A DNA stretch of 33,739 nt, taken from contig CAIKHZ010000162.1 of assembly GCA_903827375.1 (NCBI GenBank), positions 1 through 33,739 of the forward strand, read 5' to 3'. The notes under the pieces were generated by a model. The model searched no databases and had not been told where the DNA came from. It saw only the letters and a list, made by a program, of their open reading frames with translations. Positions 5,342-33,676 of the stretch are shown one piece after another. How positions within the stretch are numbered: the first letter of the stretch is position 1; each line of letters opens with the position of its first letter. A program made the position numbers and the translations under genes. Source of the stretch: Akkermansiaceae bacterium. Its GTDB lineage: Bacteria > Verrucomicrobiota > Verrucomicrobiia > Verrucomicrobiales > Akkermansiaceae.

Positions 5342-6739
5342 ATGATCGCAGAAATCCTCCCAGGCAACCTCTGGCTTGTCATCAAATTTCTCCCACTCCT
5401 TGGCATCACCGCCTTGCTCTTTGGTTTGTTCGGCTGGTGGCTGCGCCGCAAATTCCACGCCCCGATAGTCTCTAGCAGCAAACCGAGCGCCCCCGATGAC
5501 CTGCCGGCCCGCGATCGCGCCAAAAAACTCGAGCATGCCTTGGCCAAGTCCGAAACGACCCAAAAATCCCTCAAGCACGAACTCGAAACCCTCCAGGCCA
5601 AGAGCGTCTCCAAACAAGCCCTCGATAAAGCCACCAAGGATCTCGCCGACGCCCAGCACCGCCTGGAGGCCGACCTCAAACGCATCCAGGCCCTTGAAGC
5701 CGAACTCAAAAAGGCCCGCGAAGCCCTCAACACGCTCAACTCCAATACCGCCGAGGCCAATAGAGGCCAGCGCGACCGCACATTCGTCCTCGAAAACGAG
5801 CTGTCCAAAACCCGCGAAGCCCTCGCCATCCTCGAGGCCCGCCCCGATAACTCACTCGCCCTCCAATCCGAAGTTGACCGCCTCCGCGAGACCCTCACCA
5901 ATTCCACCCGCGTCATCGGTGAATTGCGCAAACAGGAATCCACCACCGCCCAAGCCTTGGCCAAAACCCAAGCCCAACTCGAGGCCGCCACCCAGCAAGC
6001 CGCCTCCTCAACCGCCGCCGTCAGCCTGCTGCCCGCCATGGAGGCCGCTGAACGCCTCTCGCGCAAACCCGCCAAAGAACCCGTCTCCACCAAGGTCGCC
6101 GACGCCAAAGAAGCCGTCGAACGCCTCCAGGCACTCAACGCTCAAAAAGAAGCCGAACGCCTCGCCGCTGAACAAGCCGCCGCTGTCAGAAATTCCCAGG
6201 ACCGCCTAGCCGCCCAACAAGCCGCCCAACAAGCCGCAGCAGCCGCAGCAGCAGAACAAGCCGCACAAGCCGCCGCCGAACAAGCAGCCGCTGCCGCCGA
6301 GCAGGAGCGCCTAGCTGCTGAACAAGCCGCCGAACAAGCAGCCGCTGCCGCCGAGCAGGAGCGCCTAGCTGCTGAACAAGCCGCCGCTGCTGAGCAGGAG
6401 CGCCATGCAGCAGAGCAAGCCGCAGCAGAACAAGCCGCAGCAGAACAAGCCGCAGCAGCAGTAGCAGAACAGGAGCGCCTGGCTACTGAGCAAGCTGCCG
6501 AACAAGCCGCCGCTGAGGAGGAACGCCTGGCCGCCGAACAAGCCGCTGCCGCCGCCGCCGCCGCTGCCGCTGCCGCAGCCGAGTTGGCTGCCGCTGCCGA
6601 AACCGAGGTGCCAGCACCCGTTGCGGCTCAACAAATCGAGTTGGAACTCCCCCCTTCCGAAGCAACTTCTGAAGCAAGCGCGGACCCCATCCTTGCGGTT
6701 GGGACGGAGCAGCCTCACGACACGAATTCTCCCGGCTGA
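5342..6739 (+). CDS. Membrane-anchored Ala/Gln/Glu-rich coiled-coil protein
   Basis: This is a 465-residue protein with one transmembrane helix (about 11-33, followed by basic RRKFH), a heptad-type coiled coil (about 55-270), and a very long Ala/Gln/Glu segment (about 275-420) with repeats of the type AAEQERLAAEQ. The C-terminus is acidic and Pro/Ser-rich. The layout resembles TolA-like spacer proteins, but no TolA C-terminal domain is present. The repetitive part contains an exact 54-bp tandem duplication. The upstream leader is C-rich with no Shine-Dalgarno sequence. It probably forms an operon with the BON-like gene. A structural or envelope-spanning role is inference only. Confidence 0.8.
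   Translation: MIAEILPGNLWLVIKFLPLLGITALLFGLFGWWLRRKFHAPIVSSSKPSAPDDLPARDRAKKLEHALAKSETTQKSLKHELETLQAKSVSKQALDKATKDLADAQHRLEADLKRIQALEAELKKAREALNTLNSNTAEANRGQRDRTFVLENELSKTREALAILEARPDNSLALQSEVDRLRETLTNSTRVIGELRKQESTTAQALAKTQAQLEAATQQAASSTAAVSLLPAMEAAERLSRKPAKEPVSTKVADAKEAVERLQALNAQKEAERLAAEQAAAVRNSQDRLAAQQAAQQAAAAAAAEQAAQAAAEQAAAAAEQERLAAEQAAEQAAAAAEQERLAAEQAAAAEQERHAAEQAAAEQAAAEQAAAAVAEQERLATEQAAEQAAAEEERLAAEQAAAAAAAAAAAAAELAAAAETEVPAPVAAQQIELELPPSEATSEASADPILAVGTEQPHDTNSPG
6272..6379 (+). repeat. Exact 54-bp tandem duplication inside the coiled-coil gene
   Basis: Bases 6272-6325 are repeated without change at 6326-6379. Each copy encodes 18 residues, so the frame is preserved. The identity, synonymous positions included, indicates a recent event within an already repetitive region. 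Confidence 0.9.
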
Positions 6740-6767: not shown

Positions 6768-7004
6768 ATGAGGCGCTGGTGGCTGCGGCTGGTGGCGACA
6801 TCGATCGGGCTAGGCTTCGTGTGGCTGACAATGGTGTTGGTGTGCCTGTTAGAAACATCGGTTATGTGGACGGGAGCGTCACTTCAAGCCGTAGATGGTG
6901 ACGCGCTGAAGCATCAGAGGGTGGGGAGAGTCGGCTTGGGTTTCCAACTTGATGAAGCGGGCTGGTTGCCCTGGCGCATCGATGCCAGCTTCGAAATGAG
7001 TTAG
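6768..7004 (+). CDS. Candidate small membrane protein or gene remnant
   Basis: A 79-residue frame starts at ATG 6768. Its N-terminus is basic (MRRWWLRL) and is followed by a strongly hydrophobic helix of about 22 residues, as in a real membrane anchor. The last 42 residues run antisense to the end of the fucosidase gene and look random. It may be the 5' end of a gene cut off where the minus-strand carbohydrate cluster begins, or a chance frame. No Shine-Dalgarno sequence or family was recognised. Confidence 0.28.
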   Translation: MRRWWLRLVATSIGLGFVWLTMVLVCLLETSVMWTGASLQAVDGDALKHQRVGRVGLGFQLDEAGWLPWRIDASFEMS

Positions 7005-8702
7005 AGGGACGACCCATGTTGATTCCCAGGTTTTGGCGCGCCAGACTTCCTGCCAGAGTTGGCCGTCCTGAGAGACTGAAAGGATCAAGCCTGTGGTCCG
7101 GCGCTCATTGGGGCGGTTGTCGATTTCCACCAAGTTGAGGGTTTTGACCGCCCCGAGGTCGATCTTCGCCCACGGGTTCTTTTCGTCGCCGGTATGAAAT
7201 GCAAAATCCAGTTTGTCGCCGGTGAAGAGACGCGGGTGATTGGCGGCATTATCCCAGGGCGAGCTGGAACTGATTTCCAACTTGGCAACGTCACTGAGAA
7301 TGGCCCCGTGCTCGGAAAGATATCCCTTGGGCACCTTAGCCACCCCGATGATGCGGCCGGCTTCGACCGGTTGATCCAAGGTCAGTTCGATCACTGTGAC
7401 CGGGGTATCACGATCCTTCGCGGCCACTTCGATGGAGAGTTCGTCGGCGCTTTGTTTGAAAGTAGCCTGAGCCCCGGTGAGCGTGCGGGCCGACACAACT
7501 TTGTAAGGAAGGGCATCAAATGCGAGTCCCGTCTTGGGCCAGTCATAGATATGCAAAAATAGCTTGTTGCCCTTGTGGCAGGATCCGCCCCAACTCCCGT
7601 TACGATAGGGACCGCCGCGAGTGCTGTAGATTCCCTGACCATACTTTTTCAGCCACTCGCCCATGGCTCGTGCGACTTTGGCCTCGCCGTCGGCGAAGGT
7701 GCCATCAGGCCGAGGCCCGAAGTTTAGCAACAGGTTGCCACCGCCGGTGGTGCAACTCACCAACATTCGGATGCAATCCTCCGGCCCCCGGAAGCCATCC
7801 TCGCCATGATAGGACCAACCTTGGCCGACGTGGATACACGACTCCCAGTCTTTGGCCAGGTCCATCGCGCCGATGCTACCCTCAGGCGTATAGTAGTCGC
7901 CCTGGGTCATCTTGGCGATTTCGGGAGTGGCCGGCCCGCGGTCTTCCGGGCTTTTTGGTCCGCAGAATTTTGCGGCCCGGTCATTGACGATGAGTTTGGG
8001 ATGCAGTTGATACATCATTGAGAAGAGCTCGTCGAACTTCCACTTGCCCCAGTCCTGGCCGCCGACGTGGTCGAACCACATCACGTCCACCTCGCCGTAG
8101 TTGGTTAGCAACTCTCTGACCTGCGTTCGGTAAAACTCGTCGTATTTCACATTGTCGCCGACCAGATAATCCGGGTGCCACCAATCGCGAGTCGAGTAAT
8201 AGAGGCCGAGTTTCATGCCTTGTTTGTGGCAGGCATCAGCGTAGGCTCGCACAATGTCTTTGGCATACGGACTGGCCATGATATCATGGTCAGATACCTT
8301 GGAATCGAATTGGGCAAACCCGTCGTGGTGCTTGGCAATGAGCACCATGTACTTCATCCCAGATGCCTTTGCGAAGCGGACCCATTCCTCTGCATTGTAT
8401 TTGGTTGGATTGAATTGCTTGTAGTAGTTGTCATACACCGGGTCTATGCCGCGAGGGGATTGGATGCCATTGATGTCCCAGGGACGGTTAGCCTGGCGGT
8501 CCCAACCAATCTCCTTGGACCCCACAGAGCACGGGCCCCAGTGAATGAACATGCCAAATTTGGCGTCGCGAAACCATTGCATGCGCTCGTCACGCTGGGC
8601 GGTGGATTCATGGATTTGTGGAACTTTTGATAGATCGGCCGCTCCTAGAGAGCTGGAGATCAGCAGCAGCGTGAACAAGCTGTGGCGTATGGTTGAATGC
8701 AT
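6879..8702 (-). CDS. Alpha-L-fucosidase (GH29) with C-terminal discoidin-like domain, exported
   Basis: GH29 enzymes remove alpha-L-fucose by a retaining mechanism. The chosen start gives 607 residues. An upstream ATG at 8780 would overlap the sulfatase gene and lacks a signal sequence in front. Residues 1-22 form a signal peptide. The catalytic (beta/alpha)8 domain (about 30-370) contains FGMFIHWGP (49-57), KHHDGF (124-129) and DVMWFDH, whose D211 is the likely nucleophile. A beta-sandwich follows (about 375-460), then a discoidin (F5/8C)-like domain (about 480-607), probably for sugar binding. It is last in the minus-strand cluster, 28 bases after the sulfatase, and probably acts in the periplasm or at the surface. 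The acid/base residue was not assigned. Confidence 0.93.
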   Translation of the reverse strand: MHSTIRHSLFTLLLISSSLGAADLSKVPQIHESTAQRDERMQWFRDAKFGMFIHWGPCSVGSKEIGWDRQANRPWDINGIQSPRGIDPVYDNYYKQFNPTKYNAEEWVRFAKASGMKYMVLIAKHHDGFAQFDSKVSDHDIMASPYAKDIVRAYADACHKQGMKLGLYYSTRDWWHPDYLVGDNVKYDEFYRTQVRELLTNYGEVDVMWFDHVGGQDWGKWKFDELFSMMYQLHPKLIVNDRAAKFCGPKSPEDRGPATPEIAKMTQGDYYTPEGSIGAMDLAKDWESCIHVGQGWSYHGEDGFRGPEDCIRMLVSCTTGGGNLLLNFGPRPDGTFADGEAKVARAMGEWLKKYGQGIYSTRGGPYRNGSWGGSCHKGNKLFLHIYDWPKTGLAFDALPYKVVSARTLTGAQATFKQSADELSIEVAAKDRDTPVTVIELTLDQPVEAGRIIGVAKVPKGYLSEHGAILSDVAKLEISSSSPWDNAANHPRLFTGDKLDFAFHTGDEKNPWAKIDLGAVKTLNLVEIDNRPNERRTTGLILSVSQDGQLWQEVWRAKTWESTWVVPLTHFEAGIDAPGQPARFIKLETQADSPHPLMLQRVTIYGLK

Positions 8703-8708
8703 GACGTT

Positions 8709-8714
8709 AGTATA
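8709..8714 (-). promoter_or_regulatory. Possible -10 element for the fucosidase gene
   Basis: The minus strand reads TATACT exactly six bases before the fucosidase ATG, inside an AT-rich patch of an otherwise GC-rich region. If used, transcription would begin at or next to the A of the start codon, giving a leaderless mRNA. No convincing -35 box is present, so this is weak. Confidence 0.3.
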
Positions 8715-8730
8715 ATTAGATTTGTGGGGG

Positions 8731-10167
8731 CTAAGGTGCTGTTTGCGGCCGCGGGCTTTGGACACGGGCGTTAGGCGCATAGGAGATACTGTCTTGAGGA
8801 GCCACTGTGTAACCCCACTTGTCGAGGTAGTACTGGCGCGGGCGGAAAGTGTCGCCGGCCTGCTTCAGCGCGGTATTCAAGCGTGCATCGAGGATTTGGC
8901 GCAACCCGGCACTGTCCGGATCATCCGTTAAGTTATGCAATTGGAGGGGATCGGTTTGGTTGTCAAAGAGCAACCAAGGCCCGGCGAGGTTACGCACATA
9001 TGTGTGGCGGTTGGTGCGAATGCCCCGATACTCGACCAAATGCGGGATGAACGGGGACACACTCATCATCAAGGCCGCTCGATCCGGGCCGTTGCCGCCG
9101 CCCCTAACTACAGCCGAAAGGTCCTCGCCCTCGACGCTGCGGGGAACCGCCACATCCGCGAGCCCGAGTAAGGTCGGCAGAATGTCCGGGGTATTGAGCG
9201 GAGTGCTGACGACCCGTGGAGCGGCCTGCGGGTCATGCAGGAGAAACGGGACATTGACGGCCTCGTCATAGGGCCATTGCTTCATCCGCGGCGAGACGTC
9301 ATGAGCGCCCATCATTTCGCCATGATCGGCGGTAAACACGACCAGCGTGTGTTCGTCCAACCCGGTTTCCTTGAGCGTGGTTAGCAGGTCACCGACGCAT
9401 TTGTCCAGAGCCGTGCAATGCGCATAGTAACCGACCAATTCCTTGCGCGCCGCCGCGGAGGACGCCGACGGGACGTTGCCGGCGAGTGATAGTTTATCAG
9501 GCTGATAGAGTGACTGGTACTCTGGCGGCGCCGTGTCGTGTGGGAAATGCGGTGGGCCGAAGGCCACGACGAGCAGGAATGGTTTGTCGGAAGGGGTGCG
9601 GCCGCGCAGGTATTGTTGAGCGTCGGCGGTTTGGGCGAAGGCGTCGTAGCCGGGCCAATATTGTTTTTCGGGTGAGGATCCGGCGTAGTAATGCGAGTGG
9701 TTGTAGTTATGATCGCACTCGGCGGCCTTCCAGTAATCGAATCCTTGGCGGCGCTCGGGTGGAATGAAGGAACTGCGGCCGTGGCCGTCGAGGTGCCACT
9801 TGCCGATGTAAGCCGTGTCGTAGCCAGCGGCCTTGAAGATCTCGCCCATGCACAGCTCAGCATCCGGCAGATAGAGGTCGTTCAGAAACATCCCCGTCGA
9901 GGTCGGATAGCGCCCGGTCAGCAGCGCCGCCCGGAACGGCGTACACACCGGGCACACCGATACCGCATTCGTAAAGCGGGTGCTTTGGGCCGCGAGAGCA
10001 TCGAGATGCGGCGTCTTGACATTGGGGTCTCCCGCATGGCCAAAGGCCGAGGCGCGCCACTGGTCCGCAAGCACGAATACGACGTTAGGTCTAGCATCAA
10101 CCAAACCGCCCACGATTGAGCAGGCAAGACCGATAGCGATGGCCAAGGCTATGCGGGGCAATTTCAT
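8731..10167 (-). CDS. Type I sulfatase (family S1), exported
   Basis: The 478-residue protein begins with a signal peptide (about 1-25). Metal-site motif VLADQWR follows at 32-38, and the sulfatase signature CTPFR at 75-79. C75 would be converted to formylglycine by an FGE- or anSME-type enzyme, and none is recognised in this window. Further family motifs are GYDTAYIGKWHLDGHG and VVFTADHGEMMGAHD. The enzyme hydrolyses sulfate esters, probably on a carbohydrate because its neighbours are a fucosidase and sugar-processing genes. The substrate position cannot be read from the sequence. The gap to the upstream TIM-barrel gene is 63 bases. Confidence 0.94.
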   Translation of the reverse strand: MKLPRIALAIAIGLACSIVGGLVDARPNVVFVLADQWRASAFGHAGDPNVKTPHLDALAAQSTRFTNAVSVCPVCTPFRAALLTGRYPTSTGMFLNDLYLPDAELCMGEIFKAAGYDTAYIGKWHLDGHGRSSFIPPERRQGFDYWKAAECDHNYNHSHYYAGSSPEKQYWPGYDAFAQTADAQQYLRGRTPSDKPFLLVVAFGPPHFPHDTAPPEYQSLYQPDKLSLAGNVPSASSAAARKELVGYYAHCTALDKCVGDLLTTLKETGLDEHTLVVFTADHGEMMGAHDVSPRMKQWPYDEAVNVPFLLHDPQAAPRVVSTPLNTPDILPTLLGLADVAVPRSVEGEDLSAVVRGGGNGPDRAALMMSVSPFIPHLVEYRGIRTNRHTYVRNLAGPWLLFDNQTDPLQLHNLTDDPDSAGLRQILDARLNTALKQAGDTFRPRQYYLDKWGYTVAPQDSISYAPNARVQSPRPQTAP

Positions 10168-17202: not shown

Positions 17203-19716
17203 ATGTTAAATTTCATTTTGGATCAATTCGGGCTGCTGGTGCTTTTGATTCCTGCGGTGATTCTTGTATATCAATCAGTGGTGGTGGTGGGCGGCAATGA
17301 AATCGCCTTGATCGAGCGGCGCTGGTTTGGCCGCAAGATGCCCCAAGGCCGGGTGGTCGCCCTGGGCAACGAAGTGGGCATCCAAGCCCGCACGCTTGGG
17401 CCCGGCCTGCATTTTCTCATTCCGTTCATCTACAAGGCCACCAAAAGCCCGTTCACCGAAATTCTGGAGAATGGCATTGGTTTGATCGAATCGGTGGACG
17501 GCACATCCATCCCGGCTGGCAATATTTTTGCGGCGGTGGTGGCCGGTCACAATTCGTTCCAAGACGGCGAGGCCTTCATTAAAAATGGTGGTCAGAAGGG
17601 CCCGCAGATCGAGGTATTGCCGCCGGGCAAGTACCGGATCAACCCCTATTTGTTCAAGTTGACCAAAGGCAGCGTCACGGAGATCAAGGACTTTGAGATT
17701 GGCCTCGTTGACTCGGTGGACGGCAAAGCGATTCCCGAAGGCAAAATTTTTGCCGAAGCGGCGACGGGACATGCATCGTTCCAAAACGGGGAGGCGTTTA
17801 TCAAGAATGGCGGCCAGAAAGGCCCGCAGATCGAGATTATTCCGCCGGGTAACTACCGCATCAATCCCTACCTGTTCAAGGTCAGGAAAAACTCCGCCAC
17901 CATGATCAGTGAAGGCGAAATCGGCCTCATCGAATCCTCCGACGGCTCGGCCATCCCTGCCGGTCGCATCTTCGCCAACGTCGTCACAGGCCACAACTCG
18001 TTCCAGTCCGGCGAGGATTTCCGCAGGGCAGGCGGCCAAAAAGGCCCTCAAATCGAAATTCTGCCGCCCGGTGTCTATCGCATCAACCCGAACCTCTTCA
18101 CCGTCACCAAGGCCCAAGCCGTCGTCATCGCCAAGGGCCAGGTCGGCATGGTCACCGCCCAAGACGGAGCCCCCATCCCGATGGGCCGGTTGTTGGCACA
18201 AAGCGTGCCGGGCCACTCCAACTTTGAAAACGGTGAGGCGTTCCTCAAAAATGGCGGCCAGAAAGGCCCGCAAATCGATGTTCTGCTGCCCGGCACCTAC
18301 CGCATCAACCTCAATCTGTTCCAAATCCAGATTGCCCCGGCGGTGGTCATCGAGGCCAACAAAGTCGGCTTGGTGGCCGCCCTCGACGGCATCCCGCTGC
18401 CGGACCGCGAATACGTTGCCTGCCCGATCAGTGGCCACAACGACTATCAGGACGGATCCGCCTTCCTCACCAAACAAGGCCAACGTGGTCCGCAGCTCGA
18501 CGTGCTGAGGCCGGGTACCTACTACATCAATCCCTTCATGTTCAGCGTCGAACTCGACGACGTCGCCGTCATCGAGCGCGGCCAGGTCGGGGTGGTGGTC
18601 TCCAACGTGGGTGAGGATCCAACCGATGAGATGAAGAAGCGCCTAGGCTCGACACAAGTGGGAGCGTCGGTCGAGGAAGGCAAGGAGAAATATGTGGTGC
18701 CGAAAGGGTTCCGCGGTATTCAAGAGGAGGTCGCCGGCCCAGGTCGCTACTATCTGAACCGCCGCGCCTTCATGGTCTATGTCATCGATACCACGAACAT
18801 CACGATCGACTGGGACGACCAAAAAGACACCCGCTTCGATCAGCTCAATGTCATCTCAAAAGACGGCTTCCCAATCGAAGTCTCCGTCAAGGTGGTCATC
18901 CGCGTCCGCCCCGACCAAGCCCCCTACATGGTCGCTAAAGTCGGCTCCATCGACAACCTCATCCAACATGTCATCCATCCGATGATCGACTCATCGTTCC
19001 GCAACCAGGCGTCCACCGCCTCGGCGATGAACTTTCTGCAAAGCCGCTCGGAAGAACAGACCAAGGCGGAATCCCGGGCCCGGGCCGATCTGGAACGATA
19101 TCACGTCGAATGCGTGTCGGTTCTTATTTGCCAGATCCGCCTGCCTGAAGACCTGATGCAAACGCAGACGAAGCGCATCATCGCCGAACAACAACAGGAA
19201 ATGTTCAAAATGGAGCAGCGCTCACAAGCGGAGCGCACCGAGATGGAAAAGATGCGTGCCACCGCAGATCAGCAACCGACGCTGGTGGCCTCCGAGATTG
19301 CGGTGAAAGTGGCGACCCAGAAGAAGACCGAGATGATCACTCTAGCCGAAGGCAATGCCGAGGCCAAGGCGCTGGAAGGCACCGGCGAGGGCAAGCGCCT
19401 CAAAGCCATCGGCGATGGCGAGGCGTCAAAGATTGCGGCCATCGGTGAAGCCACCGCCCAAGCCTATAACAAACAGCAGGCCGCCATCGGCGAGGAAGCC
19501 ATCAAACAAATCAAGATCGTCGAACTCGTCGCCGCCGCCATCGAAAAAGGCCACATCAAAATCGTCCCGGATGTGCTCGTTGCCGGCAGCGGCAACGCCA
19601 CCGACGGCCTCATGGCCATGCTCACGAAACTGCTCCCAGGCCTCGACCTGCCAGCCCTGGCCAAGCGAAGCACTCCGCCAACACCCACCCTCATCTCCAA
19701 GGACCCAACGGTCTAA
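17203..19716 (+). CDS. Flotillin-like SPFH protein with five 74-residue tandem repeats
   Basis: This 837-residue protein has an N-terminal membrane helix (about 8-30), a short SPFH-like segment (31-90), five tandem repeats of exactly 74 residues (92-461), and then a sixth diverged start in register (QVGVV at 461). A Band-7/SPFH domain follows (about 500-690). The C-terminal region is Ala/Glu/Lys-rich and helical (about 650-785), like flotillin tails, and includes IGDGEASKIAAIGEATAQAY. SPFH proteins form large membrane-attached oligomeric cages or microdomain scaffolds. The repeats, each with a GHxSFQxGE and GGQKGPQI core ending PPGxYRINPxLF, look like copies of the first SPFH beta-subdomain. 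The client and role are unknown. Confidence 0.9.
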   Translation: MLNFILDQFGLLVLLIPAVILVYQSVVVVGGNEIALIERRWFGRKMPQGRVVALGNEVGIQARTLGPGLHFLIPFIYKATKSPFTEILENGIGLIESVDGTSIPAGNIFAAVVAGHNSFQDGEAFIKNGGQKGPQIEVLPPGKYRINPYLFKLTKGSVTEIKDFEIGLVDSVDGKAIPEGKIFAEAATGHASFQNGEAFIKNGGQKGPQIEIIPPGNYRINPYLFKVRKNSATMISEGEIGLIESSDGSAIPAGRIFANVVTGHNSFQSGEDFRRAGGQKGPQIEILPPGVYRINPNLFTVTKAQAVVIAKGQVGMVTAQDGAPIPMGRLLAQSVPGHSNFENGEAFLKNGGQKGPQIDVLLPGTYRINLNLFQIQIAPAVVIEANKVGLVAALDGIPLPDREYVACPISGHNDYQDGSAFLTKQGQRGPQLDVLRPGTYYINPFMFSVELDDVAVIERGQVGVVVSNVGEDPTDEMKKRLGSTQVGASVEEGKEKYVVPKGFRGIQEEVAGPGRYYLNRRAFMVYVIDTTNITIDWDDQKDTRFDQLNVISKDGFPIEVSVKVVIRVRPDQAPYMVAKVGSIDNLIQHVIHPMIDSSFRNQASTASAMNFLQSRSEEQTKAESRARADLERYHVECVSVLICQIRLPEDLMQTQTKRIIAEQQQEMFKMEQRSQAERTEMEKMRATADQQPTLVASEIAVKVATQKKTEMITLAEGNAEAKALEGTGEGKRLKAIGDGEASKIAAIGEATAQAYNKQQAAIGEEAIKQIKIVELVAAAIEKGHIKIVPDVLVAGSGNATDGLMAMLTKLLPGLDLPALAKRSTPPTPTLISKDPTV
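17476..18585 (+). repeat. Five in-frame 222-bp repeats within the SPFH gene
   Basis: The GH pair of the repeat core has its histidine at residues 116, 190, 264, 338 and 412, an exact 74-residue period with no indels. Copies 1-3 are very similar in protein, while 4 and 5 are more diverged. Synonymous positions differ between copies, so the expansion is not brand new and protein-level constraint is likely. Confidence 0.92.
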
Positions 19717-19744
19717 CACCCGAGATGCAACCCCCTGTTTCATC

Positions 19745-21439
19745 ATGAAAAACGGACCCATCCGCAACCTGTGGCTCGCCGTGGCCCTGCTGGCAAATCT
19801 AACACCCCTGCCAGCCTTCGCCGCCGAGGCTCCAAAGATCCCGCCGGTGCAGCCTGCGGCCATCAAAGCCTGGCAGGACAAACGCTTCGGCATGTTCATT
19901 CACTGGGGACCGGTGAGTCTTACCGCCCACGAGATCGGCTGGTCGCGAGGTGCCGAGACGCCCATTGAGACCTATGACAACCTCTACAAACAATTCAACC
20001 CAGCCCAATTCAATGCCGACGAATGGGTGAAGGTCGCCAAAGATGCCGGCATGAAGTACATCGTTCTAACGACCAAGCATCACGACGGGTTCTGCCTGTG
20101 GGACACCAAGCTCACCGACTTCAACATCATGAACAGCCCGTTCAAACGCGACGTCGTCAAGGAACTCTCTGCGGCCTGCAAAAAGGGCGGCATCGCGTTT
20201 GGCACCTACTACTCCGTCTGCGACTGGCACCATCCAGACTTTCCGCTCACCAGCCCCGGCGGTGGCGTCAAGCGCGCCAAGAGCGATCTGGATGCCTACA
20301 ATGCTTATTTGCTAGGCCAAATCCGCGAACTCATCACCAACTATGGTCCGCTCATCACCATTTGGAATGACGTGCCGCAAATGTTCGAGGGCCGCGGTGT
20401 GAAAACCATCGCCATGGCGCGCTCACTCCAGCCAGATATCACGATCAACAACCGCAGCGGCGACGGCGGCGATTACGAAACACCCGAACAACAAATCGGC
20501 GGCTTCAACATGCAGCGCCCGTGGGAAAGTTGCATGACTCTATCCGCTCACAATGCTTGGGCTTGGGGCGGTGCCAACGACGGCGTCAAACCACTCGCGG
20601 ATTGTTTGAAAATGCTCGTCAGCGGCGCAGGCGGCGACGGCAATGTCCTGTTGAACGTCGGCCCGCGGCCCGACGGCTTGATCGATCCCGCTCAAAGTGG
20701 CCGCCTCAAAGAGATGGGCGATTGGCTGACAAAATATGGTGAAAGCATCTATGCCACCCGCGGCGGCCCCTTCAAACCCGGCAAGTGGGGTGCCAGTACC
20801 CGCAAGGACAAGCGCATCTATGTCCACGTCTATCAATTTGATGGCGACGTGCTGGAATTGCCGGCGATTCCCGTGAAAATCACCGCCGCCCGGGTCCTAA
20901 CCGGCGGCCCGGTGGAATTTGAGCAAAGCGCCACCGGCATCACCCTGCGCGTCCCGGCGGCAAGCCATGCGGCCATCGACACGCTCATCGCGCTGGACAT
21001 CGACCAGCCCGCGCTGGACATCGCGCCAGTGTCGCTGACTCGCAAGAGTGCCTCACTCACCAACGGTGCCCATGCCACCACATCTAACGTTTTCCAGAAC
21101 AACCCGGAGTATGCCGCAGACAAGGCGCTAGACGGCGATTTGGAAACCCGTTGGGCAACGGATGCTGACACCCACAAAGCGTGGCTTGAGGTGGATCTGG
21201 GCAAGGTCCAAACGTTTTCCAAGGTCGCCATTCACGAGTGGGAAGGTGCCAACAAACGCATCCAGCAATTCGAGGTCCAATGCAAGGACACCGGTGATTG
21301 GACCACCCTGTTTGCCGGCACCACCATCGGACCCGATTTCCAGCACTCGTTCCCGGCCGTCAGCGCCCGTCTGCTGCGCCTCAACATTCTCGCTGCCACC
21401 GACGGACCCACCATTGACGAATTCGAGATTTTCAAGTGA
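19745..21439 (+). CDS. Alpha-L-fucosidase (GH29) with discoidin-like domain, exported
   Basis: This second GH29 enzyme has 564 residues. The start at 19745 is chosen because a signal peptide follows directly (about 1-27, ending PAFAAEA). The longer open frame upstream runs through the SPFH gene. The catalytic domain contains FGMFIHWGP (48-56), KHHDGF (111-116) and ITIWNDV, giving D209 as the likely nucleophile, a different context from the MWFD of the other fucosidase. The C-terminal discoidin-like domain (about 435-564) has the motif AADKALDGDLETRWATD. It starts 28 bases after the SPFH stop, and its TGA overlaps the MgtC start by one base. It probably acts on fucosylated glycans outside the cytoplasm. 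Confidence 0.93.
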   Translation: MKNGPIRNLWLAVALLANLTPLPAFAAEAPKIPPVQPAAIKAWQDKRFGMFIHWGPVSLTAHEIGWSRGAETPIETYDNLYKQFNPAQFNADEWVKVAKDAGMKYIVLTTKHHDGFCLWDTKLTDFNIMNSPFKRDVVKELSAACKKGGIAFGTYYSVCDWHHPDFPLTSPGGGVKRAKSDLDAYNAYLLGQIRELITNYGPLITIWNDVPQMFEGRGVKTIAMARSLQPDITINNRSGDGGDYETPEQQIGGFNMQRPWESCMTLSAHNAWAWGGANDGVKPLADCLKMLVSGAGGDGNVLLNVGPRPDGLIDPAQSGRLKEMGDWLTKYGESIYATRGGPFKPGKWGASTRKDKRIYVHVYQFDGDVLELPAIPVKITAARVLTGGPVEFEQSATGITLRVPAASHAAIDTLIALDIDQPALDIAPVSLTRKSASLTNGAHATTSNVFQNNPEYAADKALDGDLETRWATDADTHKAWLEVDLGKVQTFSKVAIHEWEGANKRIQQFEVQCKDTGDWTTLFAGTTIGPDFQHSFPAVSARLLRLNILAATDGPTIDEFEIFK

Positions 21440-22152
21440 TGCATTGCATAACTGATGTTTTTGTTCGTTCCCTGCGCATCTGGCTGGTCTCACCCTGGCT
21501 GGAAATCGTGCTGGCCCTGACCGCCCTGGCCAGCGGCGCGCTTGTGGGAGCCGAGCGGGAGCGGCATGAGAAGCCGGCCGGCTTGCGCACCCTGATCTTG
21601 GTTTGCCTTGGCTCGACGGTATTTACGATCACCTCGTTTGTGTTCTCCAGCAGCACCGGGGATTCCGGGCGGGTCGCGGGACAAATCGTTACGGGCATCG
21701 GGTTTCTCGGCGCAGGAGCCATTCTGCACTCCCGCAATGGCGTCTCCGGCATGACCACAGCCGCCACCATTTGGATCACTGCTGCCATCGGCATGGTCAT
21801 CGGCGCCGGCTTCCCGCTGGCTGGCTTGGGCCTCAGCCTGCTGGTGCGCATCGTGCTGGCGGCGGTCCTCAAGTGGGAAGTCCACCACTTGGGTGGCTTT
21901 CAAACCGTCGCCATCGAGCTCGAGTTCGATCCAGACCATGGCAAAACCCGCATCAAAATGGAGCGGCTGCGCGAGGAATTCCGAGTCACCAGCCAGGCCT
22001 TGACCTACGAAAATCTCCCTGATGGATCGGTGCGCACTCAACTCGACCTGCGCCTGCCTCGCCGCCATCTGCATGAGTTTCTCGACGATCTGGCAAACCT
22101 GCCCGGGGTAATCTCTATCCACGAACACGGACAAGTGTCACAATTGCCCTGA
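21439..22152 (+). CDS. MgtC/SapB-family membrane protein
   Basis: The 237-residue protein (start at 21439, or GTG three bases earlier) has about four to five hydrophobic helices in residues 15-145. It carries the family motifs GALVGAERER...KPAGLRT (33-51) and GIGFLGAGAIL (86-96). A soluble C-terminal domain (about 150-237) follows. MgtC proteins are linked to survival at low magnesium, phosphate balance or modulation of the F-type ATPase in pathogens; in free-living bacteria the role is unclear. Whether the overlap with the fucosidase gene reflects co-transcription or only compact packing is unknown. Confidence 0.9.
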   Translation: MHCITDVFVRSLRIWLVSPWLEIVLALTALASGALVGAERERHEKPAGLRTLILVCLGSTVFTITSFVFSSSTGDSGRVAGQIVTGIGFLGAGAILHSRNGVSGMTTAATIWITAAIGMVIGAGFPLAGLGLSLLVRIVLAAVLKWEVHHLGGFQTVAIELEFDPDHGKTRIKMERLREEFRVTSQALTYENLPDGSVRTQLDLRLPRRHLHEFLDDLANLPGVISIHEHGQVSQLP

Positions 22153-22262
22153 CCCGCCCACCCGCCTACCCGCCTACCCGCCCATTTGCCCTGACCTGCC
22201 CATTTGCCCATTTGCCCTGACCTGCCCACCTGCCCATTTGCCATGACCCGCCCACCCGCCCA
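22145..22262. repeat. Degenerate short tandem repeat array between mgtC-like and small gene
   Basis: From the end of the MgtC gene to inside the next gene the DNA consists almost entirely of 8-base units of the form CCYAYYYG (for example CCCATTTG, CCTACCCG), with 10-base CCCTGACCTG units between them. About thirteen units are visible. The array includes the last codons of the upstream gene and the first of the downstream gene. Confidence 0.8.
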
Positions 22263-28822: not shown

Positions 28823-31800
28823 TCATTGTGCTTGGACGCGGACGAAGAGTTTGCCGTTGGCTGGAGCGCTGCTGACATGCACCGTCACCGTCTGGACGTC
28901 ACCGTTGGTGGTGACGTTCTCCTCGGTGGTTCCCGCGTCCACCACCCAAGCTTGCAGGTTCGTGGAGGTGAGCACCAGATAGGTGAGGCCGGACCCGACA
29001 CGCCGGGTGTATTGAAACCTCCCCGTGGCCGGAGCGAGCGGCTTGATGACCGGGTTGACCGATGATCCTTTGGTCGGCTTGAGACCGAAGGCGAATTCCT
29101 GTTGGTTGGTCATGCCATCATGGTCGGGGTCGTCCCCCGGCTGATCGTTCACGCCGGCGGTGAGACCCTGCGCGGGGTCACTCGCCCAGAGGGCATAAGC
29201 CGAAGAAGTGGTGAAACTCAGCGGGGTGGCTGGCCAGATGGTTTGCGTGGCGTTGGTGGCGCGGAAAGTGAAGTAATAGGTCGTGCCGGGTGCCAGATTG
29301 GTGAGCGTGCGAGCGAGATTGATGGACGTCACATTGGACCATGAGCCGATGCTTGCCGAGTTGGCCCAGTTGGCGGGGTTCATGCCGCCATTGATGGGAC
29401 CCCAGAAGGCGACCACGTCATAGTTGCTCGCGTTGCACATCAGCGTGGCGTTGAGCGTCGAGCTGGTGGTAGTCACTGCGGTGGCGGGCCGGTTGGCTAG
29501 GCTGCCGGTCGCCGGATACGTCGTGGCCAGCCCGTATTTGGCGGCCAGGTAGCCACCGACCAAAGCTTCATCGCTCGCTGACAGCGCGGTGGAGTACCCG
29601 ATGATTTCAGCAACGTCGAACATCATCGAGCCGAGGGTCTCGCACTTCCCAATTTGATAGAATGGATACTGTGCCAGATTTGCCGCGCTTGCGCTCGCAT
29701 CGACGGTGATCTTGAGAAGCATGAAGTCGGTGATGGGCGCGAGATGAAAGCCACTGCCAGCCACACTATTCTTCGCCAACGCTGTGCCGTTCTTGGAAAC
29801 TGCGTCCGGGAAGTGGTCTTGCCAGAACCCGTCGGTGCCATTCGCCAGATTGGAACTCGAGGACCGCACTGAACCAAAATCATTGGATTTGCGGCCGAGG
29901 AACGAACCGTCGCCGCTCCAAGTGGCGCTGGGCGAGCGCACCACGACATACTGCTCTTTGGCAAAGAACTTGCCGGCAACGTCGAACCAAGTGGCGTTGT
30001 CCTGGAACCGGACCACTGGTTGCGACATGATTTGATTCGCGACAAAGACCGGTGCACCGCTGGCCAAGGTCGCGTGATGCGCATTGCCGGAGCGGTCATT
30101 CCAGATATGTACCACCCCATCTGCATCGCTGGTGACGCCGACGGCCGCATCGAAGTGGCAGGCGAGACCCGTGGTGACGGGAACCGTGTAACTGTCCACG
30201 GCGATCACCGCAACGGCCGACGTGATGACCTGACCAGCGCCGGTGGTCGCCTTGGCTGTTAGATGATACTCGCCCGCCGGCACATTCGTCCACACCACCG
30301 AATAGGGCGCTGTGGCAATGGACCCGATCAGCGTGCCGCCATTATAGAAGGACACGTTGGTCACCGTGCCGGTCACATCCGCAGCATCGGCCGTCAACGT
30401 GAGCGTCGTCGGTTGTCCGGCCCGCAGACCGATGCGTGCGCCGTCCAGCGGTGAAGTCAGGCTCACGCCCGCCTCTGGAAACAACAACTCTTGCGGGATG
30501 ATCATGGCGGCCTGGCGGGACGGAATATACCAACACAGCCTCACCGTCGCCGGATTGGCAATGTCATTGTCGTAGTACTCCATCTTCAGGTTGTATTTCC
30601 GACCCGCCACCAAGGTGATGGGAGCGCTGTCGTTCCAGATGTTGCTGGACTGATTGTTCCAGTCATTGATCACCTGCGTGCCGTTGACCCACAAGCGAAC
30701 CCCGTCGCTGCTGCGCGTGGAAAACCGGTAGGTCCCGCTCTCCGGTGCCAGCACCTGTCCGGTCCAGCGCACACTGTAGGTGCCCGCGGCCAGCGGACTC
30801 GGTGGAACCGTGCCCCAATCAAAGTTCACGGCGGGGTCGCTGCGCGTCGCTTGGAGCGAGGTGAGATCCACGTTGTCGTAATAGTGTCCGGTCAGGCCGC
30901 TGCCACCGCTGCCAACCACAATATCCACGGTCGCCGGCGCCGACTGTGTTAGGCTGTCGGTAACCGTGAACGTGAACTGGTCTAAGTCCTGATAGCCCAT
31001 CGCGGGGGTGTAAGTCAGGTCGGGCGGCGTGCCTGTTAGGGTGCCGTGTGCCGGTTGGGTCACCACCGAGCAGGCCACCGGGTTTGACCGGCAGGAGGAG
31101 CCGGTGAGGGTGATGGCCATGGGCGTGTTGCCAGGAGTGACCACGATTTGCGGGTCGGCTATCGGCAACGTAGCGATGAGCGCTGGGCTGCTGGTGGCGG
31201 CTTCCAACGCGGCAAGGGTGCTGACTAGCATATTGTAGTTTCCGCCATTCGGCCACCAGGAGAGGTCCGCATACAAATCCGGCAGCGTCCAGCGGGCCGC
31301 CTCGCCATAATTCGCCAATCCCTCGAGGGCTGTGCTGCTGATATCACCCGAGTAAGCCACCTTGTCTATGCACACTTGGATCGATTCTTGCATGCGACAC
31401 TTCAGCAGCGCACTCATGGCGGCCGAAGTCGGGTAGGGGGTGAGCATCCGGTCACACGGTCCCTCGGTTCGCGCATCCTCCAACAGATCCGGTGCCAGTG
31501 CCTTAATGTCAGCCAAGGTCAAGCTGTTCTGCACGAAGTCGCTAAGTTGATTGCGCCACATGCCGGCCGGATGTTTGATTCCAGTCCGCACCGCCGGATA
31601 GAGCAAAGCCTTATCCGAAGTCAGGGTGTAAGGCACCAAACGACTGAACAGCGTCTCTGCCAGATAGCCGTTGGCGATCTGCAAGGGATCATCCCAATTG
31701 AAGCCGACCTCGAAGGGATAGGTGGGTGCCACGTTGGCGACCATCGATCCTAACATATCTGGCAGCGCCGGAGCCACATCCGCAGCGTTGATCTGGCCCA

Positions 31801-33676
31801 GCGCCTTGGCGGCTTTGGCGCGCACCCAGAGGTCAGTATCATTGAGTCGGCGTGCCAGGGCGGGCACCGCGATGGTGGCGTTCAAGCAACCTAGGGCGGT
31901 GCAAGCCGCCTCACGCTGATTGGCACTGGCGGGATTTTCCGCCATGGCGATCAGGGCGTTCAACTCAGCAGGGGTCAGAGTGCGGGTGGCCAATTCAGTG
32001 GCGGCATTGAAGCGCACAATCGGATCCCATTCGCCCAAGGCTGCAACCAATTGTGCCTTGGTATAAGTGCCACAGGCCTCGGTGAAGTGCGTAGCCCAGA
32101 GCGCATTGCTCAGTGCGCCGCTGCTTAGCGTGTTTGCCGGGTCTGCGTTCTTGCCGGTGATGTAAAGTTTCTTCAAGGGGATGGAGGCGTGCAGGAGATA
32201 ATAGGCGGTGGGGTTGCCAAAATCATAATAAGTATAGTAATCGTCCCAATAGTCGTAGGCTTGGCCGGGCCCCCATTGCTCGTCACCTTCATACACAAAG
32301 GACCCGTCGCAGCGGCGTTTCATGTCGCGGTCCCAGCGCAGGTTCTTTTCATATTCAGTCACCGCCGCCGGACCGCCCACATTGGCGCCCAGCGCCGTCC
32401 ATAGGTAACTGAACCCCTGCCCGGTGTGTCCGTATTGCTCGCCCGTGTAGCCCGCCACGGACATCCTCGAAAAATACTCCGTCTGCACCGGATGGTTGCC
32501 CATGCAAGCGAACATGACCGCCGCCAACCCGTCCCTGCCATTGCTGCAGTGGTCATAGTACGTGCGACTTTGATCCTGAAGTTGGTGTTCGCCGAAATAC
32601 GGTTGGTGTTCGCCATAGGGAATGGACCCGCGGTTGACATAGTAGCCAAAAAACTTCGCCGCCCGCTCGATGGCTGGATCGATCTCCGGGCTCACCACGC
32701 CGGCCTTTTTTCCTAACACAATCGAAAGTTGGGCTGCCAGTCCGGCCTGATTGACCGGGCCATACGAAGGGATCGAGCCATGGGTTCCCGCGGCCACCCA
32801 ACCGCCGGGCGGCGGCACAGTCGAAAACCCGTGACCCGCCGTGCCGAACATGCTCGAATGTTTGGCCGCGTAGATGACATACTCGCTGAGTCCGTGAAAG
32901 ACCGCATCGTCGTTGGTCAGCAGGTAATACTCGGCCAGAAAGATACTGTTGTAACAATTCCAAGCCGATATCCCGCTGCGCTCTAGGTCAAGGTCTCGGG
33001 GTGCCAGCGAGCGGGCATAAGACCGCAACATGGGCAGGTAGCTGCGATTGCCGGTAGCCAGCAGGGCCAGCGCATTGACGGCGCCCGCCCCGCCAGACCC
33101 GCCCCAACCTTTTTGTGCGAGACTCGCTGCGGCCCGATTCATGATCAGCGTGGTCTTGGGACAATTGTAGGGTGCCGTATCGGAGTAGGCACCCATGACG
33201 GGCAGGCTGATGGTCACATCCGCGGTGGCCACCCCGGAGCGCCAGCGTTTGAACCTCAGGATGCCATCGGCGGCCTCGGCGGCACCGATCGCCCAGCCCA
33301 GGCTTTTGCGGGCATCACCGGTGAATAGCGGCACCGCGCCACTGCCAGCACTCGCGCCCAGAATCACGTCATCGACGGTCAGGATGCCATCGGCCGGGGT
33401 GCCGGCGGCCACCGTAGTCACCAAAATCTGATAAGGGGCGAATGCCGTATAGCCATCCTGTGCGGGTGTCTCGGGCCAACCGTTGTCAATCCAGCCGCGC
33501 ATCCCGGTTGGTCCAAGGTTATAGGTCCAGGTGCGGTCAACCAACAAGCGATTGTTGTCGGCGGTGAGATCAATCTTCTTCGCAGTGACACCTTGGACAT
33601 TGCCGGGCAAGGCCAGCAGCAGGGTCAGGCAGAGCCCCTTGAACAAAGCACCCAGCGCAAGAGCATCAGATCTCAT
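28823..33676 (-). CDS. Giant secreted multidomain protein (DUF6288-like, HEAT, PA14)
   Basis: This is a 1617-residue protein. A signal peptide (about 1-30) is followed by a DUF6288-like region (about 33-545) with a PDZ-like start (ADGILTVDDVILG) and an alpha/alpha-barrel-like part rich in Tyr, Trp and Gly. HEAT-type repeats follow (about 545-640), with a helical region to about 835. Next come a cadherin/tandem-95-like domain (840-922), a PA14 domain (925-1066; GTYRFSTRSSDGVRLWVNG), an Ig-like domain (1070-1162), a LamG-like region (1165-1385) and an Fn3-like domain (1395-1490). The C-terminal region has a calcium-loop-like DDPDHDGMTNQQEF and ends NGKLFVRVQA, like its neighbour. PA14 and LamG suggest carbohydrate binding at the cell surface. 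The enzymatic role of DUF6288 is unknown. Confidence 0.85.
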   Translation of the reverse strand: MRSDALALGALFKGLCLTLLLALPGNVQGVTAKKIDLTADNNRLLVDRTWTYNLGPTGMRGWIDNGWPETPAQDGYTAFAPYQILVTTVAAGTPADGILTVDDVILGASAGSGAVPLFTGDARKSLGWAIGAAEAADGILRFKRWRSGVATADVTISLPVMGAYSDTAPYNCPKTTLIMNRAAASLAQKGWGGSGGAGAVNALALLATGNRSYLPMLRSYARSLAPRDLDLERSGISAWNCYNSIFLAEYYLLTNDDAVFHGLSEYVIYAAKHSSMFGTAGHGFSTVPPPGGWVAAGTHGSIPSYGPVNQAGLAAQLSIVLGKKAGVVSPEIDPAIERAAKFFGYYVNRGSIPYGEHQPYFGEHQLQDQSRTYYDHCSNGRDGLAAVMFACMGNHPVQTEYFSRMSVAGYTGEQYGHTGQGFSYLWTALGANVGGPAAVTEYEKNLRWDRDMKRRCDGSFVYEGDEQWGPGQAYDYWDDYYTYYDFGNPTAYYLLHASIPLKKLYITGKNADPANTLSSGALSNALWATHFTEACGTYTKAQLVAALGEWDPIVRFNAATELATRTLTPAELNALIAMAENPASANQREAACTALGCLNATIAVPALARRLNDTDLWVRAKAAKALGQINAADVAPALPDMLGSMVANVAPTYPFEVGFNWDDPLQIANGYLAETLFSRLVPYTLTSDKALLYPAVRTGIKHPAGMWRNQLSDFVQNSLTLADIKALAPDLLEDARTEGPCDRMLTPYPTSAAMSALLKCRMQESIQVCIDKVAYSGDISSTALEGLANYGEAARWTLPDLYADLSWWPNGGNYNMLVSTLAALEAATSSPALIATLPIADPQIVVTPGNTPMAITLTGSSCRSNPVACSVVTQPAHGTLTGTPPDLTYTPAMGYQDLDQFTFTVTDSLTQSAPATVDIVVGSGGSGLTGHYYDNVDLTSLQATRSDPAVNFDWGTVPPSPLAAGTYSVRWTGQVLAPESGTYRFSTRSSDGVRLWVNGTQVINDWNNQSSNIWNDSAPITLVAGRKYNLKMEYYDNDIANPATVRLCWYIPSRQAAMIIPQELLFPEAGVSLTSPLDGARIGLRAGQPTTLTLTADAADVTGTVTNVSFYNGGTLIGSIATAPYSVVWTNVPAGEYHLTAKATTGAGQVITSAVAVIAVDSYTVPVTTGLACHFDAAVGVTSDADGVVHIWNDRSGNAHHATLASGAPVFVANQIMSQPVVRFQDNATWFDVAGKFFAKEQYVVVRSPSATWSGDGSFLGRKSNDFGSVRSSSSNLANGTDGFWQDHFPDAVSKNGTALAKNSVAGSGFHLAPITDFMLLKITVDASASAANLAQYPFYQIGKCETLGSMMFDVAEIIGYSTALSASDEALVGGYLAAKYGLATTYPATGSLANRPATAVTTTSSTLNATLMCNASNYDVVAFWGPINGGMNPANWANSASIGSWSNVTSINLARTLTNLAPGTTYYFTFRATNATQTIWPATPLSFTTSSAYALWASDPAQGLTAGVNDQPGDDPDHDGMTNQQEFAFGLKPTKGSSVNPVIKPLAPATGRFQYTRRVGSGLTYLVLTSTNLQAWVVDAGTTEENVTTNGDVQTVTVHVSSAPANGKLFVRVQAQ

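Follow-up and report, generated by a model that had tools for sequence, protein, structure and literature searches.

A membrane-anchored bacterial SPFH protein whose tandem repeats appear vault-like in predicted fold

The repeat-SPFH protein is an 837-residue bacterial protein of the SPFH/Band 7 superfamily that appears, by predicted fold only, to be built like the major vault protein (MVP). It is encoded on a 33,739-nucleotide (nt) stretch from an Akkermansiaceae bacterium (contig CAIKHZ010000162.1, assembly GCA_903827375.1), which is the window of this study. The protein is fairly likely to be a stand-alone SPFH membrane scaffold in the form of a membrane-tethered half-vault, in which tandem repeats make up the wall and the number of repeats sets its height. 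A search of the open-access PMC literature turned up no report of bacterial SPFH proteins that carry tandem MVP-like repeats.

The repeat array in this protein is real. Residues 92-461 (nt 17476-18585) consist of five consecutive 74-residue units with zero indels. An initial annotation, made from the sequence alone, had described five exact 74-residue repeats; the period is indeed exact, but the units are only 38-69% identical in pairs (28-51 of 74 residues), with 21 of 74 positions invariant and a DNA identity of 0.54-0.71. Self-identity at an offset of 74 amounts to 189 of 436 positions (0.43) over residues 26-535, against a maximum of 0.134 in 2000 shuffles, each scored by its top value over any offset of 20-199. 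The array is not an assembly artefact, because five full repeats occur in 27 of the 109 family loci L040-L148, isolate genomes among them. An antisense open reading frame (ORF; 17275-18483, 402 residues) is taken as a by-product of the coding strand.

A repeat hidden Markov model (HMM), whose starting units came from the window and which was then refined with homologues, detects seven modules: a short one behind the hydrophobic N-terminal segment, the five full repeats, and one that forms the first half of the Band-7 domain. The annotation had noted a sixth, diverged repeat start in register; a module does begin at residue 462, but it is already the start of the Band-7 domain's SPFH1 half, and a further, shorter module at residues ~26-91, after the membrane helix and ahead of repeat 1, had been overlooked. 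Across 54 repeats, seven positions never vary (G2, G9, F34, G39, G42, Q44, and G51), and D8, Y53, and N56 are conserved in at least 90%. Pfam finds nothing consistent in these repeats, as any one family matches at most 2 of the 54 single repeats (best E 0.012). Pfam Band_7 matches residues 505-676 of the full protein (E 2.5e-24, 86.7 bits against a curated cut-off of 23.6); with this match and a predicted SPFH fold, the protein is a member of the SPFH/Band 7 superfamily.

The modelled protein resembles MVP. A single-chain, full-length AlphaFold2 model from an alignment of 76 rows has a mean predicted local distance difference test (pLDDT) score of 76.8 and a predicted template modelling score (pTM) of 0.50. 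In it, the strands of the repeat core follow one pattern in all seven modules, and each of the five full repeats has in addition a short helix within an insert. Foldseek against the PDB places MVP chains at ranks 1-12 for this model (best E 8.6e-17), followed by prohibitin, HflC, erlin, and stomatin. With VIA-align, the SPFH part superposes on prohibitin 9o9z_A (Z 17.0, root-mean-square deviation (rmsd) 7.2, 206 aligned), model residues 528-650 on the stomatin SPFH domain 4fvg (Z 14.0, rmsd 2.0, 109 aligned), and model residues 24-531 on the MVP R1-R7 crystal 3gnf, which ends before the shoulder (Z 13.2, rmsd 4.8, 342 aligned).

A separate AlphaFold model of three repeats (residues 240-461, 93 rows) has a pLDDT of 94.8 and a pTM of 0.87. 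Disorder of the repeats, an outcome that the annotation had set against its own proposal, is thus absent from the prediction. The top 13 VIA-align rows for the three-repeat model are MVP, and SPFH1 subdomains come next; the best MVP match is 7pkz_A (Z 8.3, rmsd 3.1, 153 of 222 aligned, MVP residues 120-280). Foldseek also ranks MVP 1-12 (best E 4.5e-3). The expectation that each repeat folds like the first SPFH subdomain agrees with the model, in which the repeat core superposes on SPFH1 of prohibitin 9oa0_A (44 residues, rmsd 1.1, Z 5.0) and of Erlin2 9wff_A (42 residues, rmsd 1.7, Z 4.8), with higher scores for MVP repeats. Each repeat is therefore read, from the models, as an SPFH1/MVP-repeat core plus an insert of ~20 residues. 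Among viral structures in BFVD, the full model best matches A0A3G5A4K1 of the giant virus Harvfovirus (E 3.0e-14 over 959 alignment columns); this 802-residue "prohibitin domain" protein is perhaps another MVP-like one.

The N-terminus of the repeat-SPFH protein carries a predicted membrane anchor. The 19-residue Kyte-Doolittle mean of the window protein is 2.74 at residue 11, and all 76 aligned family members have a hydrophobic segment near the N-terminus. Lys and Arg are more numerous in the 30 residues after this segment than before it in 75 of the 76. The positive-inside rule predicts topology from the distribution of these residues, and the excess C-terminal of the helix therefore places the repeat array and the SPFH domain probably in the cytoplasm.

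Vaults, in which two half-cages are joined at their N-termini, are among the biggest and most poorly understood eukaryotic particles. The annotation had taken a wall lengthened by SPFH1-like repeats for a design not known before, yet MVP is a precedent, with nine three-stranded beta repeats ahead of an SPFH-like shoulder (PMC13347060). SPFH proteins are membrane-bound half-cages, and the MVP repeats precede the SPFH domain and give a closed double cage (PMC13100048; also PMC12624060). Like MVP, the repeat-SPFH protein is predicted to stack tandem three-stranded beta repeats before an SPFH-like domain and long helices. Unlike MVP, it has a predicted N-terminal membrane helix upstream of the SPFH domain, repeats of 74 residues with an insert rather than ~54 (from the 7pkz_A chain range 120-280), and five full and two degenerate modules rather than nine. 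Neither the Vault nor the MVP_shoulder signature was detected in it.

The protein shares an N-terminal membrane helix, SPFH1-SPFH2, and long helices with prohibitin, stomatin, HflK-HflC, QmcA, and Erlin. Stomatin, HflK-HflC, and QmcA have one SPFH1 module before SPFH2. The same is described for Erlin and prohibitin (PMC12624060), whereas seven modules precede SPFH2 in the repeat-SPFH protein. The "giant" SPFH2b flotillins are bacterial SPFH proteins of similar size (800-1000 residues) that are described as large by an expanded coiled coil and not by an N-terminal beta-repeat array like the one found here (Hinderhofer et al. 2009, PMC2636767). The same paper lists SPFH subfamilies 6-12 as having no documented members (PMC2636767), and the repeat-SPFH family may be hidden among them.

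The label flotillin-like, given in the initial annotation, is not supported. Flotillin-specific models exist in the Pfam and NCBIfam libraries, and none matched the 837-residue protein: Pfam at E<=1 returned Band_7 only, and NCBIfam returned only two HflC models, both in the SPFH part and below cut-off, with the HflC equivalog at 24.1 bits against 134.4. An NfeD operon is a feature of SPFH1, 2, and 5, with single-gene exceptions on record (PMC2636767). In the window, CTP synthase and an alpha-L-fucosidase, and not NfeD, adjoin the repeat-SPFH gene; across L040-L148 no neighbour recurs widely, a comparison made with no NfeD model. Neither mark of a flotillin (FloT/SPFH2), the model match or the operon, was thus seen in the window.

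Several results weigh against a half-vault and against kinship with MVP. Neither a profile of 54 repeats nor a profile of two repeats plus the SPFH domain finds MVP among PDB sequences. Profile-profile comparison with MVP homologues from viral contigs gives the repeats a probability of 1% and aligns the SPFH part only, at 34%. The Pfam families Vault and Vault_3 are absent from the window protein at E<=1 and are not listed at E<=10 for 21 family members (set A5) or for the 54 single repeats, while viral MVPs do score with the same library. On the structural side, the three-repeat model has no Foldseek match at E<=0.001, and its Z of 8.3 (below 8 before realignment) is modest and lies within the tool's warning range for common arrangements. 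The full-length pTM is only 0.50 and the mean pLDDT of the five models spans 64.5-76.8, so the path from module to module is uncertain. AlphaFold training structures include MVP. Cage formation is something we infer by analogy with SPFH proteins and vaults, as the models are of single chains only. Finally, no widely recurring neighbour exists across the 109 loci L040-L148, and hence the surroundings give no hint of cargo.

Further sequence tests compared the family with MVP. MVP_shoulder (PF11978) is absent from the window protein and the 21 members of set A5, all of which match Band_7, and it matches 11 of 11 viral MVPs. In the window's phylum, Vault (PF01505) matches 0 of 194 genomes and MVP_shoulder 0 of 288, but control genomes are likewise unmatched, so these counts do not establish absence. 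An HMM of viral MVPs scores repeat-SPFH proteins weakly (best E 0.008), which was set aside as a sign of repeat kinship and read as the common SPFH part. Because the repeats lack sequence similarity to MVP, the protein is not filed as an MVP.

The likeness to MVP could also come from independent tandem duplication of a common SPFH1 unit, with the two arrays lacking common ancestry. This account is compatible with a half-vault and has slightly better than even prospects. The lack of any sequence relationship between these repeats and MVP counts in its favour, and since each repeat also resembles SPFH1, both arrays could arise from such a unit. The match of a modelled three-repeat stack to three consecutive MVP repeats (3.1 Å over 153 residues) speaks against it.

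Lineages vary in copy number. To count as a full repeat, a match had to score >55 bits and span at least 58 model positions, and the last (SPFH1) module was excluded. Among the 109 loci L040-L148, 27 have five full repeats, 17 have four, 37 have three, and 28 have two, counts that lean on the query's nearest loci and are not frequencies; L030 has a single full repeat. Two of the two-copy loci are truncated or short, namely L097, which lies at a contig end, and L118; the other 26 are viral. Successive full repeats are spaced by 74 residues in 193 of 226 pairs (L040-L119). The annotation had also considered a fixed architecture already described elsewhere, which is at odds with this variation and with the literature search.

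Repeat number is stable within clades. In an unrooted tree of the SPFH part (59 chosen sequences, L030 left out), the classes with two, three, four, and five copies need three changes, the minimum for four classes. The five-copy group, reached by one change, has 12 sequences, support of 100/100, and a mixture of Verrucomicrobiota, Geobacteraceae, and others. The four-copy group, also reached by one change, has eight sequences and support of 98/95, and three-copy forms surround both groups. A tree of 67 single repeats, unrooted, built on few columns, and with many unresolved forks, tends to group the repeats by position and not by protein: last repeats fall together, penultimate repeats fall together, and the extra repeats of the four- and five-copy forms fall with the first repeat of three-copy forms. 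From this positional grouping, array growth seems to be membrane-proximal and separate in the two groups. Copy number thus seems, on these trees, to have risen from three to four and from three to five by whole-repeat duplication at the membrane-proximal end.

If the half-vault model is correct, each module would fold as an SPFH1/MVP-repeat-like beta unit, with an inserted loop and short helix in the full repeats. The modules would stack, and long helices would come after SPFH2. From knowledge of the SPFH family, many copies side by side could form a ring on the inner membrane, facing the cytoplasm, in which the seven modules would be the wall of a membrane-seated cage and the helices its roof. 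Repeat number would then set wall height and hence the volume of a chamber over the enclosed membrane patch. Such a chamber may segregate or protect membrane proteins or lipids, as is supposed for other SPFH cages. The idea of the initial annotation that repeats lengthen an SPFH wall is partly supported by the predicted SPFH1-like fold of the repeat core and by the varying copy number, while the cage, the lengthening itself, and a binding surface are what might follow from it.

Alternatively, the repeats may mainly display their conserved insert (GHxxFQ / GQKGPQ) to a protein partner, lipid, or small molecule, with height incidental. The insert is an addition relative to the ~54-residue MVP repeat, and it contains invariant and near-invariant positions across the 54 repeats. 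Much of the conservation (GPQ...PG.Y.IN) nevertheless lies in the beta core and turns, where it could be structural, and no ligand or known binding fold was identified, so that a ligand-binding array is unlikely. A stalk that holds an ordinary SPFH ring off the membrane in place of a sealed wall is quite improbable, for although whole-repeat variation and the order membrane helix, array, SPFH would suit a spacer, the clade-stable copy number (three tree changes) and near-fixed period suggest specific packing, and the predicted match to MVP favours a wall.

The repeat-SPFH family is widespread. The window's genome holds a single match, and counting it, 6 of 97 Akkermansiaceae genomes match at E<=1e-20 and 29 of 387 genomes of the phylum at E<=1e-25. 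A scan of named genomes found at least 539 relatives among 585 candidate stretches. The best 80 of the 539, the loci nearest to the query, were analysed, and they belong to Verrucomicrobiota, Geobacteraceae, Pseudomonadota, Nitrospirota, Bacteroidota, Acidobacteriota, Bacillota, Myxococcota, Elusimicrobiota, Fibrobacterota, and others. The window protein and that of Geobacter L043 are identical at 0.89 of protein positions, with a fourfold-site identity of 0.46. Transfer between Geobacteraceae and Verrucomicrobiota is likely, because these phyla are mixed in one clade, and it is not recent, because fourfold sites are only 0.46 identical; a very recent transfer, which the protein identity might suggest, is ruled out. 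Within the window's phylum, 14 loci (L017-L029, L031) have two neighbouring SPFH genes, both with modules that match the repeat HMM mostly over its second half; they are read as a second, paired form of the family.

Mobile elements also carry the gene. Matches occur in 67 plasmid records, mostly of Rhizobium (48) and Streptomyces (16). On Rhizobium binae plasmid p7 (L035), genes for a DNA repair exonuclease and an AAA ATPase follow that of a two-copy "flotillin family protein" on the same strand. Ten phage records match, including Vibrio phages and an uncultured phage of 642 kb. Phage CBB accounts for two of the ten, with matches confined to the SPFH part, and phage Kuja appears under two entries. 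Among viral contigs, 29 of 88 candidate stretches encode a relative. The viral status of these contigs rests on IMG/VR, and L124, L125, L131, and L137 are near-copies among the viral loci. A Gp23-like capsid relative lies near the gene in L124 and a terminase in L126, while the four-copy contigs L120-L122, which group with Bacteroidota proteins, might be host sequence. A nicotinamide phosphoribosyltransferase-like gene is present at L124:3040-4554, and its relatives lie near the repeat-SPFH gene in L125, L127, L129, L131, and L137, although several of these six loci come from near-identical contigs. This neighbour is curious because vaults bind ADP-ribose (PMC13174449).

MVP homologues are encoded in viral contigs as well. 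One source states that vaults are absent from prokaryotic cells (PMC9778704), and another mentions a predicted vault protein in Borgs (PMC12660748). A 369-kb viral contig encodes a 1050-residue MVP homologue (MVP_shoulder E 6.8e-29) beside a two-copy repeat-SPFH gene. Viral contigs yielded MVP relatives in 146 of 169 candidate stretches, of which the best 80 were kept (L160-L239). MVP_shoulder and Vault_3 match each of the 11 aligned members, and a profile of these members picks up eukaryotic MVP in the shoulder and helical part (E 1.3e-33). The huge-phage records LR756500.1, LR756501.1, and LR756503.1 (462 and 735 kb) carry MVP, with two of them identical in length and coordinates.

Five of 33 viral or phage records with a repeat-SPFH gene carry MVP: L136, L140, L142 (1697-4846, +), L144, and L148. 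In all five, both genes share a strand and a two-copy repeat-SPFH gene directly follows MVP after a gap of 79-196 bp; a contig end truncates MVP in two of these records. The L144 MVP is 37-40% identical to the other paired MVPs, and its repeat-SPFH protein is 64-70% identical to its counterparts. This arrangement suggests that the two proteins may be a working pair in some huge phages. As a regular pair they are less credible, given the 5 of 33 records above, a repeat-SPFH gene in 1 of 44 picked MVP records with known pairs left out (~350 kb from MVP), and a repeat-SPFH gene within ~6 kb of MVP at 3 of 85 loci, from two contigs.

A broader proposal holds that membrane-anchored half-vaults are made by bacteria from many phyla and by some huge phages, that these half-vaults share a prokaryotic repeat-SPFH ancestor with MVP, and that phage MVP and repeat-SPFH proteins cooperate. 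It is doubtful as a whole, but if a common ancestor existed, the eukaryotic vault would be of prokaryotic origin. The repeat-SPFH family joins a membrane helix and MVP-like predicted repeats in a single chain. If the model is right, this is an intermediate design, and cultured bacteria that differ naturally in repeat number would allow wall height, assembly, and cargo to be tested in simple organisms. Geobacter sp. AOG1 and Oryzomonas japonica, both cultured, have the five-copy form, and Sporomusa silvacetica has the three-copy form. Viral MVP genes open another route to the function of vaults.

Table 1. Layout of the repeat-SPFH gene in the window (residue numbers refer to the 837-residue protein).
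Feature	Position (nt)	Strand	Basis
Coding sequence, predicted membrane-anchored SPFH protein with tandem vault-like repeats, 837 residues	17203..19716	+	ORF; Band_7 E 2.5e-24; model
Predicted N-terminal membrane helix, ~residues 9-29	17227..17289	+	Hydropathy; model helix 9-25
Degenerate N-terminal module, ~residues 26-91	17278..17475	+	Repeat HMM 38 bits, second half; model strands 33-39, 59-65, 68-71, 77-83
Repeat 1, residues 92-165	17476..17697	+	Periodicity, repeat HMM, full model
Repeat 2, residues 166-239	17698..17919	+	Periodicity, repeat HMM, full model
Repeat 3, residues 240-313	17920..18141	+	Periodicity, repeat HMM, full and three-repeat models
Repeat 4, residues 314-387	18142..18363	+	Periodicity, repeat HMM, full and three-repeat models
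Repeat 5, residues 388-461	18364..18585	+	Periodicity, repeat HMM, full and three-repeat models
Seventh module, predicted SPFH1 subdomain, ~residues 462-533	18586..18801	+	Repeat HMM 68 bits; model; boundaries approximate
Predicted SPFH2 subdomain, ~residues 534-648	18802..19146	+	Band_7 505-676; stomatin SPFH 4fvg superposition on model 528-650; boundaries approximate
Predicted long helical region, ~residues 649-781, lower confidence	19147..19545	+	Model helices 649-725, 729-762, 764-781; pLDDT ~80 falling to ~50
C-terminal tail, mostly low confidence	19546..19713	+	Model

The repeat-SPFH gene is flanked by genes for CTP synthase and an alpha-L-fucosidase, with a CMP-KDO synthetase-like gene upstream of the former and an MgtC-family protein after the latter. 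The biggest recurrent neighbour family occurs at 10 of the 109 loci, and one scanned member is a PAS/HisKA protein. As no neighbour recurs widely, the gene is taken as a stand-alone cistron. A defence-system library gave zero matches among the three proteins scanned.

Other parts of the window hold features of their own. Two alpha-L-fucosidases with F5/8 domains and a sulfatase (6882-10167, -, and 19355-21436, +) suggest the use of sulfated fucose-rich glycans. A 465-residue ORF (5342-6739, +) contains tandem repeats with units of 54 bp and shorter at 6197-6608 and has no Pfam match at E<=0.001. A short tandem array with a ~26-bp unit (22152-22262) lies at and just past the 3' end of the MgtC-family gene. 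A 1617-residue protein (28826-33676, -) contains DUF6288, HEAT, PA14, and bacterial Ig domains.

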